Assembly (NCBI GenBank): GCA_029233965.1
Contig: JARGOP010000045.1
Span: 1-36,932, forward strand
Reading direction: 5' to 3'
Length of the DNA stretch: 36,932 bases
From: Verrucomicrobiales bacterium
GTDB taxonomy: Bacteria > Verrucomicrobiota > Verrucomicrobiia > Verrucomicrobiales > DEV007
Shown: positions 30,163 through 34,990 of the stretch, in pieces
How the letters are laid out: every line of letters starts with the position of its first letter
Numbering within the stretch: position 1 is the stretch's first letter
Translations under genes and position numbers: made by a program
Notes under the pieces: generated by a model
Databases searched by the model: none
What the model was told of the DNA's origin: nothing
What the model saw: only the letters and a program-made list of their open reading frames with translations

Positions 30163-31326
30163 ATGCCAGTTCCTGACCGTCCCAAAAACGTCGTCGTGTT
30201 AGGCTCGACCGGCTCCATCGGCGAAAGCAGCCTCAAAGTGGCCCGCGACATCCCCGGGCGGATGAAGGTGGTCGGCCTGGCCGCCAATCGCAGCGTCGAA
30301 ACCCTCGCCGACCAGATCAATGAGTTCGGAATCAAACAGGGTTGCCTCTACGACCCGACAGGGTTGGATTCGCTTATTGCCAGGGTGCCGACTGATGTCG
30401 CGCTCCACACCGGGGAAGAGGGGCTCATCGAACTCGCAACAATGCCCGAAGCGGACCTCGTCCTCATTGCCATTGTCGGGGTGGCAGGACTGCGGCCTGC
30501 CCTCGCGGCGATCGAAGCAGGCAAAGACATCGCCGTCGCAAGCAAGGAAATTCTCGTCATGGCAGGCGAAACCGTCATGAACGCAGCAAGGGAAAAGGGA
30601 GTGCGCGTGCTCCCGGTCGATTCCGAGCACAATGCGATTTTTCAGTGCCTGGAAGATCGCTCCTCTGCGGACGTCTCCCGCCTCATCCTCACCGCTTCCG
30701 GCGGACCTTTCCGCGAACTTCCCTCCGGGCAGCTTGCCGCCGTCACGAAAGCACAGGCGCTCAAGCACCCGACCTGGGAGATGGGGCAGAAGATCACGAT
30801 CGATTCCGCGACCCTGTTCAACAAAGGCCTCGAAATGATCGAAGCCCGCTGGCTCTTCGATATCGAAATGGCGCGGGTCGATGTCATCGTGCACCCGCAG
30901 AGCATTGTTCACAGCATGGTGGAGTTCATTGACTCCTCCGTGCTCGCTCAGCTCAGCACGACAGACATGTGTTTCCCGATCCAGTATGCAATCACCTGGC
31001 CGGAACGGGTTCCCAACACGCTTCCTCCCCTCGACTTCGCGGAACTGGCCCGACTCGATTTCGAAGCCCCGCGCTGGGAGGATTTTCCGGCTCTGAATCT
31101 CGCGAAGGAGGCCGGCACTCGCGGCGGCACCCTTCCTGCGGTCATGAATGCCGCCAACGAAGTCGCCGTGGCCGCTTTTCTTGAGGAGAAAATTGCGTTT
31201 CCTGCAATCTGGGAAACGGTGGAGAAGACGATGAGCTGCCATCATTGGAAGGAAAAGCCTTCGCTGGAGGAAATCATCGACGCCGATCTCGAGGCACGAA
31301 GCAAAGCCGCAGAATTTATTTCATGA
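30163..31326 (+). CDS. dxr: 1-deoxy-D-xylulose 5-phosphate reductoisomerase
   Basis: Second step of the MEP isoprenoid pathway: NADPH-dependent conversion of DXP to 2-C-methyl-D-erythritol 4-phosphate. 387 residues. NADPH motif VLGSTGSIGESSL is at about residues 7-19. PVDSEHNAIFQCLE carries the metal-binding Asp and Glu. TASGGPF, HPTWEMGQKITIDSATLFNKGLEMIEA and VHPQSIVHSMVEF form the substrate site. The ATG lies 4 bases after the cdsA stop. Its stop overlaps the start of the ROK kinase gene by four bases (ATGA), indicating translational coupling. uppS and rseP, often neighbours, are absent. Confidence 0.97.
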   Translation: MPVPDRPKNVVVLGSTGSIGESSLKVARDIPGRMKVVGLAANRSVETLADQINEFGIKQGCLYDPTGLDSLIARVPTDVALHTGEEGLIELATMPEADLVLIAIVGVAGLRPALAAIEAGKDIAVASKEILVMAGETVMNAAREKGVRVLPVDSEHNAIFQCLEDRSSADVSRLILTASGGPFRELPSGQLAAVTKAQALKHPTWEMGQKITIDSATLFNKGLEMIEARWLFDIEMARVDVIVHPQSIVHSMVEFIDSSVLAQLSTTDMCFPIQYAITWPERVPNTLPPLDFAELARLDFEAPRWEDFPALNLAKEAGTRGGTLPAVMNAANEVAVAAFLEEKIAFPAIWETVEKTMSCHHWKEKPSLEEIIDADLEARSKAAEFIS

Positions 31327-32312
31327 GCAAGAAAAAGAAGCACTACGAAGGCCGCGTCTGGATCGGCTTTGATCTGGGTGGCACCAAGATGCTCGCCAAG
31401 GTTTTCAATGACGACTACCAAACCCTGGGCCGCGCCAAGCAAAAGACGCAGGGTGCTAAAGGAGCCGAGGCCGGCCTCTCCCGCATGGTCAATGTGATCG
31501 AATCTGCGCTGGATGATGCGGGAGTGGAACCCAAACAAATTGCCGGGATCGGGGTCGGCTGCCCGGGACCTTTGAATCTCACCAAAGGCGAAATCGTTGA
31601 AGCCCCCAACCTGAACTGGCACGATGTTCCTATCGAAGCCTATATCGGCGATGCGTTCGACTGTCGCGCCGTGATCTGCAACGATGTCGATGCCGGCATC
31701 TACGCGGAATATGAAGAAGGTGCTGCCCGCGATGCCCGATGTGCTGTCGGCATATTCCCCGGCACCGGAATCGGAGCCGGAGCGGTCATGAACGGCCAAA
31801 TGCTCCGCGGCGCTCACCTTTCCTGCATGGAGCTCGGTCACATTCCTCTTTTCCCGGAGACTTCTGGAGACGGATCAGAAGGCAGCACTCTTGAGATGGA
31901 ATGCTCCCGTTTGAAAATCTCGTCCGAGGCAGCCCGTGCCGCGTACCGCGGCCTTGCGCCGAATCTCCTCAAATCCTGCGGAACTGACATCTCCAACATC
32001 ACGAGCGGAAAGCTCGCGGCCGCGATCGACGCCGGTGATGAAGAGATCGAACGAATTGTGCGGCGCTCCGCGGTTCTCCTGGGTTGCGGTGTCGCCACCG
32101 TCGTGCATCTCCTTTCCCCGGATGTGATCGTCCTCGGCGGAGGCCTCGTCGAAGCGATGCCGGAGCTCTATGTCGAAACCGTTCGCGAGGCGGCAAATGA
32201 CCGGGTCCTCGGCCCCTACAAAGGCAGCTACAAAATCGTCGCCGCGGAGCTGGAAGACGACGCAGGCGTCATGGGCGCCGCAGCCTGGGCGCGGAAAGTG
32301 ATTGAAGCCTGA
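31323..32312 (+). CDS. ROK family sugar kinase (glucokinase-like)
   Basis: 329 residues from the ATG at 31323, whose ATGA overlaps the dxr stop. The ATP phosphate-binding motif GFDLGGTK is at about 15-22. ROK motifs follow: GIGVGCPGPLN, NDVDAG, GIFPGTGIGAGAV, and the substrate-site ELGH. The usual zinc-binding cysteines after ELGH (CGCGxxGCxE) are missing; the segment reads PLFPETSGDGSEGSTLEMEC instead. VIVLGGGLVEAMPELY matches the C-terminal ROK motif. It most likely phosphorylates glucose or a related hexose in the cytoplasm; the exact sugar cannot be read from the sequence. The stop directly abuts the stop of the convergent small gene. Confidence 0.9.
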   Translation: MSKKKKHYEGRVWIGFDLGGTKMLAKVFNDDYQTLGRAKQKTQGAKGAEAGLSRMVNVIESALDDAGVEPKQIAGIGVGCPGPLNLTKGEIVEAPNLNWHDVPIEAYIGDAFDCRAVICNDVDAGIYAEYEEGAARDARCAVGIFPGTGIGAGAVMNGQMLRGAHLSCMELGHIPLFPETSGDGSEGSTLEMECSRLKISSEAARAAYRGLAPNLLKSCGTDISNITSGKLAAAIDAGDEEIERIVRRSAVLLGCGVATVVHLLSPDVIVLGGGLVEAMPELYVETVREAANDRVLGPYKGSYKIVAAELEDDAGVMGAAAWARKVIEA

Positions 32313-33082: not shown

Positions 33083-34990
33083 ATGTCCGCTTTTGTTTCC
33101 ACTCCCGTTTCAACGAGCAAGATGCCTCCGGGTATTCCCTACATCATCGGAAATGAGGCCGCGGAACGGTTCAGCTTCTACGGAATGCGAACCATCCTCA
33201 CCATTTTCATGGTGAACTACCTTTGGCTGATGGGGGATTCCCCCATCGCGAAACTTTCGGATGCAGAAGCGACAAAACATTTCCACGACTTTGTCTCGCT
33301 CGTTTATCTGACTCCGATCTTCGGAGCGCTCCTCGCGGATCTTTTCTTCGGCAAATACCGGATCATCATGGTGCTCTCGGTCGTCTATTGCATCGGGCAT
33401 GCCGCGCTCGCGCTTATGGGAGTAGTGGGAGAGGCTCACTGGTGGTTAATCGCCGGGCTCTGGCTCATCTCAATCGGCTCGGGTGGCATCAAGCCCTGCG
33501 TCTCCGCCCACGTCGGGGATCAGTTCGGGAGTGAAAACCGACACCTTCTTCCGCGCATCTTTAACTGGTTCTACTGGTCGATTAACCTCGGCGCTTTCCT
33601 CTCCACCCTTCTCACGCCGTGGCTGTTGGAATGGCATGGCCCGCACTGGGCCTTCGGGGTTCCCGGCGTGCTCATGGCCCTCGCGACGCTCGTTTTCTGG
33701 ATGGGGCGCTGGAAGTTTGTCCACATCCCCGCGAAGGGAACCGGCTTTCTCAAGGAACTCTTCAGCCCGGTCGGCCTCAAAGCAATCGCCAAACTCTTCT
33801 CCATCTACGTCTTCGTCGCGATCTTCTGGGCGCTCTTTGATCAGACCGGATCGTCGTGGGTCCTGCAGGCGGAAAACATGGATCGCAACTGGCTCGGAAT
33901 CGAGTGGCTCCCGAGTCAGATCCAGGCGCTGAACCCCATCCTGATCCTGACATTCATCCCGCTTTTCTCTTACGTCATCTATCCACTGATCGACAAATTC
34001 TTCCCGCTCACCCCGCTGCGAAAAATCAGCATCGGGTTGTTTCTGACGGCGGCCTCCTTCGCGCTTGTTTCCATGGCTCAGGGAAGAATCGACGCCGGCG
34101 GGACGCCTTCGATCTCGTGGCAGCTTTTGGCCTACGTCCTCCTCACTGCGGGCGAGGTCATGGTCTCGATCGTCTGCCTCGAGTTCAGCTACACGCAGGC
34201 GCCCCGGTCCATGAAGTCGGTGATCATGGCCATCTTCCTGATCTCGGTTTCCCTCGGCAACCAGTTCACGGCCGCGATCAACCACTTCATTCAGGTGGAA
34301 AGCCCGCTCGCCACGATTGAGTCCACCTCCAATGAAGTCGCGCACGGAGGCTACGATCAGCAATCCGGGACTAAAGATGACTTCCAACTGACCTTCGATG
34401 AAGACGGAAAACGTACCGCCCTGAATTTCGCCGGAAAGGCGGAGCTCGACCTGCTCCTCGACCGCTTCAAAGCGGAGATCGAATCCAACAACTTCGAAGC
34501 ACCGGGCAACGAACGGGGAGCCGAATTGGCCGCATCGCTCAATGACCCCTGGGGAGTGCCCTATCAATTCCGTCTCATCAATCGCAATCAAATGCGGATC
34601 TGGAGCAACGGAGCCGACGGGGAAACACTCACCCCGTGGGATCAGGGAGCGGTTCTTCAGATTTCCCGACCCGACACGACGGAGCCTTCCGCCATCGCGG
34701 CTTTCTTTGACCGTTTCCGTCCGGAGGAGCCCTGGCTGGAACGACGCAAGGCGGAACTGGGTGTCGAAACGAAAGCGGAGGCCAATGCTGCAGGCCACCA
34801 GGTCTCACGGGATTATTTCGTCGGCGGACTGGTGAAGCTGGAAGGCGCCAGCTACTTCTGGTTCTTCACGATGGTCATGTTAGGTGCCGCTGCGATCTTC
34901 GTGATCGTCGCCAGGATCTATCAGCCGAAGGAATATTTTCATGACGAAGTCGACGAAGCCGAGGCGCGTGGAGAAGCGATCGGGAACTGA
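33083..34990 (+). CDS. POT/PTR2-family transporter with pseudopilin-like insertion
   Basis: 635 residues from the ATG at 33083, which follows AAAGAGA; an upstream GTG at 33068 is less likely. It is a proton-coupled oligopeptide transporter-type MFS protein: the proton-coupling motif lies in NEAAERFSFYGMRT in helix 1, and the PTR2 signature in FNWFYWSINLGAF in helix 5. I count 12 helices with no clear HA/HB pair. Between helices 11 and 12 (about residues 403-587) sits a soluble insert of about 185 residues. Part of it, LNDPWGVPYQFRLINRNQ followed by RIWSNGADGETLTPWDQG (about 487-522), strongly resembles the C-terminal domain of GspG major pseudopilins. By the usual topology the insert is periplasmic. 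The substrate (di/tripeptides) is inferred from the family. Confidence 0.92.
   Translation: MSAFVSTPVSTSKMPPGIPYIIGNEAAERFSFYGMRTILTIFMVNYLWLMGDSPIAKLSDAEATKHFHDFVSLVYLTPIFGALLADLFFGKYRIIMVLSVVYCIGHAALALMGVVGEAHWWLIAGLWLISIGSGGIKPCVSAHVGDQFGSENRHLLPRIFNWFYWSINLGAFLSTLLTPWLLEWHGPHWAFGVPGVLMALATLVFWMGRWKFVHIPAKGTGFLKELFSPVGLKAIAKLFSIYVFVAIFWALFDQTGSSWVLQAENMDRNWLGIEWLPSQIQALNPILILTFIPLFSYVIYPLIDKFFPLTPLRKISIGLFLTAASFALVSMAQGRIDAGGTPSISWQLLAYVLLTAGEVMVSIVCLEFSYTQAPRSMKSVIMAIFLISVSLGNQFTAAINHFIQVESPLATIESTSNEVAHGGYDQQSGTKDDFQLTFDEDGKRTALNFAGKAELDLLLDRFKAEIESNNFEAPGNERGAELAASLNDPWGVPYQFRLINRNQMRIWSNGADGETLTPWDQGAVLQISRPDTTEPSAIAAFFDRFRPEEPWLERRKAELGVETKAEANAAGHQVSRDYFVGGLVKLEGASYFWFFTMVMLGAAAIFVIVARIYQPKEYFHDEVDEAEARGEAIGN

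Follow-up and report, generated by a model that had tools for sequence, protein, structure and literature searches.

A pseudopilin-like domain between the last two helices of POT peptide transporters from Verrucomicrobiales and Planctomycetota

Among the peptide transporters of the POT family, mammalian PepT1 and PepT2 (SLC15A1/2) have an outer domain that consists of two tandem Ig-like folds placed between TM9 and TM10, binds trypsin, and can be removed with transport persisting (PMC4597091). According to the same structural paper of 2015, a large extracellular domain sets the mammalian members of the family apart from the bacterial ones, in which it is absent (PMC4597091). Among the bacterial transporters of solved structure, PepTSo (4uvm/2xut) and PepTXc (6ei3) have a short TM11-TM12 link and carry the extra helices HA and HB. 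A second system that bears on our results is the major pseudopilin of the type II secretion system (GspG/EpsG/PulG; T2SSG, PF08334), which binds calcium in the loop between strands 2 and 3 of its sheet. For PulG, the role of this calcium-binding loop was discussed in PMC6692295. Our searches of the literature turned up no POT or MFS protein that carries a pilin-like domain.

The protein analyzed here is encoded in a window of 36,932 nucleotides (the whole stretch of DNA that was analyzed), which lies on contig C133 of a draft genome of 4.8 Mb in 151 contigs, with named relatives in the order Verrucomicrobiales. An open reading frame on the plus strand, at 33083-34990, encodes 635 amino acids plus the stop. 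Its features, in coordinates of the window, are the following:

33083..34990, plus strand: coding sequence of the POT/PTR2 peptide transporter (open reading frame, Pfam, PDB relatives, structural superposition)
33083..34291, plus strand: TM1-TM11, residues 1-403 (model; ExxERF, K137, E358)
34292..34846, plus strand: insert, predicted folded extracytoplasmic domain, residues 404-588 (model, link-length alignment)
34346..34384, plus strand: loop 1, GGYDQQSGTKDDF, residues 422-434, resembling the GspG calcium loop (conservation, weak hhalign match)
34436..34486, plus strand: pseudopilin-like core helix, residues 452-468 (model)
34544..34555, plus strand: DPWG motif, residues 488-491, with D488 invariant (conservation, hhalign)
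34565..34606, plus strand: first and second strands of the pseudopilin sheet, residues 495-508 (model, hhalign)
34604..34642, plus strand: loop 2, SNGADGETLTPWD, residues 508-520, at the position of the GspG calcium loop (G510, D512 and D520 invariant)
34643..34666, plus strand: strand 3, residues 521-528 (model)
34691..34828, plus strand: extra segment C-terminal to the pilin sheet, residues 537-582 (three short helices, one strand; W551 and GG581-582 invariant)
34847..34918, plus strand: TM12, residues 589-612 (AlphaFold2 model)

Sequence and model identify this protein as a peptide transporter of the POT family, predicted to be proton-coupled, in the PepTSo/PepTXc/PepT1-2 branch. It matches Pfam PTR2 at E 1e-82 (278.6 bits against a cut-off of 27), and its closest relatives in the PDB are PepTSo (2xut, 1.4e-91) and PepTXc (6ei3, 5.7e-83), followed by PepT2/PepT1. 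The full-length AlphaFold2 model (pLDDT 86.4, pTM 0.88) has the MFS fold with 12 core helices, and the core superposes on PepTXc (Z 44.0, 423 residues) as well as on PepTSo and human PepT2 (Z 43.4 for both). The fold, the order of the helices, the ExxERF motif and the region of the TM10 glutamate are all shared with PepTSo and PepTXc, at 40-43% identity over ~420 residues, but the window POT differs from them by the lack of HA and HB (19 residues join TM6 to TM7) and by a 185-residue folded outer domain. The catalytic and coupling residues, in the ExxERF motif of TM1 (E25, E28, R29), K137 of TM4 and E358 of TM10, are invariant in 45 homologues, and the core is predicted to import di- and tripeptides by the usual POT mechanism. 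A Pfam PTR2 search revealed no second POT in the host genome. Upstream of the transporter, at 30163-32312 of the window, there are genes resembling dxr and a ROK-family kinase gene; the order of these two and of a CdsA-like gene located further upstream, beside the POT, is kept within the genus only.

Similarity to POT cores ends at residue 403/404 and returns at ~588, which delimits an insert made up of residues 404-588, between TM11 (residues 375-403 in the AlphaFold2 model) and TM12 (589-612). The first-pass annotation, made from the sequence of the window, had described at 34289-34843 an insert of about 185 residues that splits helices 11 and 12 of an otherwise standard PTR2 transporter; this was borne out, and those coordinates agree with the limits of the alignment. 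Across 84 aligned POTs, the TM11-TM12 link measures 137-241 residues when the insert is present and 5-22 when it is absent (8-22, if one distant planctomycete POT is set aside). The TM9-TM10 link of the window POT is normal, with 14 residues between positions 333 and 346. The model and the link lengths also confirm that the insertion site is TM11-TM12, unlike the TM9-TM10 site of the mammalian domain, as had been proposed. Modelled alone with AlphaFold2, the insert is globular, with pLDDT 86.9 (90-98 in the core). Numbered from residue 404, it comprises, in this order, a strand, a loop, two strands, a helix at 49-65, another at 73-80 and a three-stranded sheet (92-97, 100-105 and 118-125), after which three short helices and one strand lead into TM12. 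A disordered or fast-changing linker was ruled out by the pLDDT and by the dN/dS values presented below. An assembly artefact or a fusion of reading frames was likewise discarded, given the single open frames found in tens of genomes from two phyla.

In an MFS protein with both ends in the cytoplasm, the TM11-TM12 link faces the periplasm, and so does the TM9-TM10 link, in which the mammalian domain is located. Because the charge pattern (the positive-inside signal) is only weakly informative, the side of the membrane was deduced from this conserved family topology, which suggests that the insert is extracytoplasmic, that is, periplasmic. The window POT would then resemble PepT1 and PepT2 in that a folded domain, placed between two C-terminal bundle helices, lies on its outer face, with one pseudopilin-like fold between TM11 and TM12 instead of tandem Ig-like folds.

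The insert almost certainly descends from the globular domain of a major pseudopilin of the type II secretion system (GspG/T2SSG). The Pfam T2SSG model gave 4.9e-4 and 20.6 bits for the window insert alone, slightly below its cut-off of 21 bits, which is exceeded by the homologous inserts L115 and L154 (27.7 and 27.0 bits); this model matches 29 of 46 homologous inserts, and NCBIfam GspG matches 12 of 59. When the insert profile was compared with all PDB sequences, the best five matches were all GspG chains (E 0.011-0.053). Moreover, hhalign aligned the insert profile with seven genuine verrucomicrobial pseudopilins, among them the GspG of the host genome itself, with a probability of 97.8% and E 1.1e-12 over 58 columns, which span the PTT..G segment, DPWGNPY and S.GPD....T..D.

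Structural comparisons led to the same family. The top matches of the insert model were 4lw9, 3gn9, 3g20 and 3fu1 (Z 6.6-6.9), with EpsG from V. cholerae, GspG from V. vulnificus and GspG from enterohaemorrhagic E. coli as the best-matching structures, and the superpositions on major pseudopilins have an rmsd of 2.4-2.5 A over 75-77 residues at 22-27% identity. Next came the pilin 1qve (Z 5.8) and a model of the XcpG filament (5.2), and the first unrelated fold appeared at 4.4; the solved structures with Z >5 are only major pseudopilins and pilins. Foldseek returned no significant match for the insert (best E 0.67), and therefore the fold claim rests on VIA-align and the profiles. A Z of ~7 between a model and a solved fold is moderate by itself, and convincing only together with the evidence from sequence profiles. 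A chance resemblance between motifs was ruled out by the PDB profile matches, the T2SSG matches in 29/46 inserts, hhalign and the structural matches.

These results also answer what the first-pass annotation had claimed about this domain. It had pointed to the order and spacing of DPWG.PY....GADG as those of major pseudopilins, and NDPWG and RIWSNGADGE do occur at the positions that it gave, residues 487-491 and 505-514. Structure prediction followed by a fold search was expected to point to GspG, and it did so, with a confident model of the insert and EpsG/GspG as its best matches. The pseudopilin reading also withstood the two findings that would have counted against it, an unrelated fold or a disordered and variable insert, since the model showed a pilin-like fold, and the insert proved to be both ordered and conserved in its relatives. 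Identity, origin and placement of the insert taken together, apart from any docking role, can be regarded as very probable.

In comparison with GspG/EpsG/PulG, the insert keeps the C-terminal helix of the pseudopilin, packed on a three-stranded antiparallel sheet, the position of the calcium loop, and the motifs DPWG.PY and S.G.D....T..D in the same order, but not the prepilin N-terminus. It has neither a prepilin peptidase cleavage site nor the hydrophobic N-terminal half of the helix, used for assembly; it begins directly after TM11 and is tethered by TM helices at both ends, whereas the genuine GspGs that we retrieved do start with a GFTLxE-type sequence (prepilin N-terminus G^FTLxE). It differs further by the additional C-terminal helices and strand and by one calcium ligand replaced mostly by an aromatic residue. 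The score with NCBIfam TIGR01710 is 13.3 bits, below the equivalog cut-off of 88.85. The insert is a T2SSG-type domain in a new place and not a pseudopilin.

The first-pass annotation had proposed that the insert could dock peptides, a partner protein or calcium, and the conservation of loop 2 is compatible with calcium binding. All 59 inserts share G510, D512 and D520 and have either T or S at 517, but residue 519, at a position that we take to be that of an acidic calcium ligand in GspG, is aromatic (W, Y or F) in 56 of them. Further invariant residues of the insert are D488 and W551. Upstream, loop 1 had also been read as a pseudopilin tail, for which the evidence is suggestive: hhalign aligns GGYDQQSGTKDDF with the calcium loop of GspG (E 1.3e-4), but with a probability of only 53.5%, and the segment alone has no T2SSG match. 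A full second pseudopilin domain was not supported by these results. Residues D425, D432 and D433 of loop 1 are conserved at 86-92% and, since tandem modules occur elsewhere (in L265 and L270, described below), its sequence may represent the surviving end of a first module.

POTs with the insert were found in 32 of the 34 genomes of the genus, the window's own counted; the two genomes lacking a match, G006 and G009, are 86% and 69% complete. The profile search for POTs with the same insert, which had been suggested along with the first description, extended this to several Verrucomicrobiales families, with full-length matches, and to Planctomycetota. In a sample of 388 genomes drawn evenly from Verrucomicrobiota, the insert was detected in this order only (15 genomes, E 3e-35 or better), and in Planctomycetota 22 of 392 genomes gave matches with an E of about 1e-18 or better. 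Among the named carriers are Rubritalea marina, Haloferula rosea, Planctomycetes bacterium Pla163 and several Phycisphaerales MAGs. The best 80 loci of a scan of the genome collection with an alignment that included TM12 all belong to Verrucomicrobiota or Planctomycetota. A scan of the same collection with the single protein gave no matches, as the divergence of the insert is too great for a search by eight-residue words.

Relatives without the insert, with 53-57% identity in the core, are present in the same order and in Planctomycetota. In a FastTree phylogeny of the core, from which the insert columns were left out, all 56 insert-bearers fall in one clade (support 0.946). The tree from a quick IQ-TREE search needs two changes, versus 23.7 for shuffled labels, and a tree constraining the insert-bearers together is 28 log units above that search, with p-AU 0.878. 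A single gain of the insert, in an ancestor of a clade of Verrucomicrobiales and Planctomycetota POTs, explains these data best. Most insert-bearers were found through the insert itself, and thus only the smaller PTR2-based samples speak for the absence of losses. Comparisons within the genus gave a dN/dS of about 0.03-0.22 in the insert and 0.025-0.054 in the core, so that the insert is under clear purifying selection, with a constraint weaker than that of the core.

The insert profile also detected T2SSG-like modules on membrane proteins that are not pilins. In Planctomycetota, non-pilin proteins anchored by several TM segments carry a pseudopilin-type module at the C-terminus (L265-L269, L271), another one, of 966 residues, has three such modules (L270), and L272 is also among the non-pilin proteins with the module; tandem modules occur in L265 and L270. 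In Verrucomicrobiota, L084, L080 and L088 combine a single hydrophobic anchor with a T2SSG-like module (hhalign E 9e-10). These three proteins, together with L090, L092 and L087, are short and devoid of a prepilin N-terminus, and some of them are encoded near a genuine pseudopilin. Two proteins beside a pseudopilin have a lipobox-like start followed by a T2SSG-like module (L087). Proteins such as L265-L269, L271 and L084/L080/L088 have in common with the window POT the module, a membrane anchor and a location that is probably outside the cytoplasm, but in them the module is C-terminal or in tandem, whereas in the window POT it lies inside the transporter. Judging by the diversity of these anchors, the module is mobile in Verrucomicrobiota and Planctomycetota, and a pool of non-pilin membrane proteins of this sort was probably where the transporter acquired it. 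The pseudopilin fold is seen here in use independently of any filament, as a mobile domain attached to several types of membrane protein.

As for its function, we tentatively favor, by analogy, the possibility that the insert is a docking module for a partner. The domain would stand in the periplasm, over the C-terminal bundle of helices, calcium bound in the conserved loop or loops would stabilize it, and it would dock a second protomer of the transporter or a periplasmic protein, for example a peptidase. Docking is favored because of the analogy with the mammalian transporters and PepTSo2 and because relatives keep the core without the insert. Our search for a partner among conserved gene neighbors found none, the neighbors being housekeeping genes kept within the genus only. 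The insert might instead serve the transporter itself, by stabilization or by self-association through the TM12 side, with no outside partner. It is attached directly to TM12, next to which the invariant W551 and the GG/GA residues suggest a fixed packing, and in PepTSo2 an outer loop that touches helix 12 drives the assembly of tetramers (PMC6497099). Nevertheless, the PepTSo2 loops concerned are TM7-8 and TM9-10, not TM11-12, and relatives from the same order whose core is 53-57% identical do without the insert, which indicates that the core does not need it; such a role seems to us somewhat doubtful. We consider unlikely a calcium- or ligand-dependent gate, in which the domain would move with the extracytoplasmic gate and tune transport. 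The residues of the GspG-type calcium loop are conserved in loop 2, loop 1 is similarly acidic, TM11 and TM12 are part of the moving C-terminal bundle, and the title of a work cited in PMC11265797 states that an interaction of the PepT1 outer domain with TM1 facilitates transport; however, transport is not appreciably impaired when the mammalian domain is removed (PMC4597091).

The descent from a major pseudopilin and the genuine GspG encoded in the host genome (L031) might suggest that the domain docks the transporter on the T2SS pseudopilus or on another type IV filament machine. This is very improbable: the domain lacks the hydrophobic assembly helix and is held in the membrane at its two ends, there are no conserved type II secretion genes nearby, and the presence of the module on many unrelated membrane proteins points to a generic use. 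A neutral, functionless decoration would be in line with the faster evolution of the insert compared with the core and with the relatives that keep the core without it, but the insert is maintained in all sampled members of the clade, its dN/dS is well below 1 and some of its residues are invariant across two phyla, and for this reason we find it quite unlikely. The function of the insert can be directly addressed by swaps and deletions, because insert-bearing and insert-less relatives occur in the same order with 53-57% identity in the core. These proteins might also be less difficult to work with than their mammalian counterparts.

Outer domains of POTs have been credited to mammals only, and here one is found in a whole bacterial clade, maintained by selection in two phyla, with another fold and in another loop. 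Other bacterial POTs have additional segments at the mammalian site. A POT from Planctomycetota (L236, also L281; G609:C163:78366-80324) lacks the TM11-TM12 insert and has ~225 residues between TM9 and TM10, two stretches of which match the bacterial Ig domain Big_9 (E 4.8e-14); loop and Ig fold class are the same as in PepT1 and PepT2. Two further planctomycete POTs, L293 (G809:C226:18200-20400) and L294 (G722:C17:9000-11100), have ~150-175 residues at TM9-TM10, in which a different, unrelated and apparently helical repeat is found (AARDAGWTNGQIAASFVGAES in L293). The inserts of L236, L293 and L294 show that outer domains were added to bacterial POTs more than once. It is conceivable, albeit speculative, that POTs of Planctomycetota and Verrucomicrobiota repeatedly gained outer docking domains, the pseudopilin module at TM11-TM12 and tandem Ig or helical repeats at TM9-TM10, that tether peptide-producing proteins beside the importer. 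If so, bacteria would have a counterpart of the trypsin-binding domain of PepT1 and PepT2, with the pseudopilin fold recruited as a calcium-dependent protein-binding module. Lastly, in one of the insert-bearing POTs (L120) the TM6-TM7 link is also enlarged, with 101 residues instead of 19.
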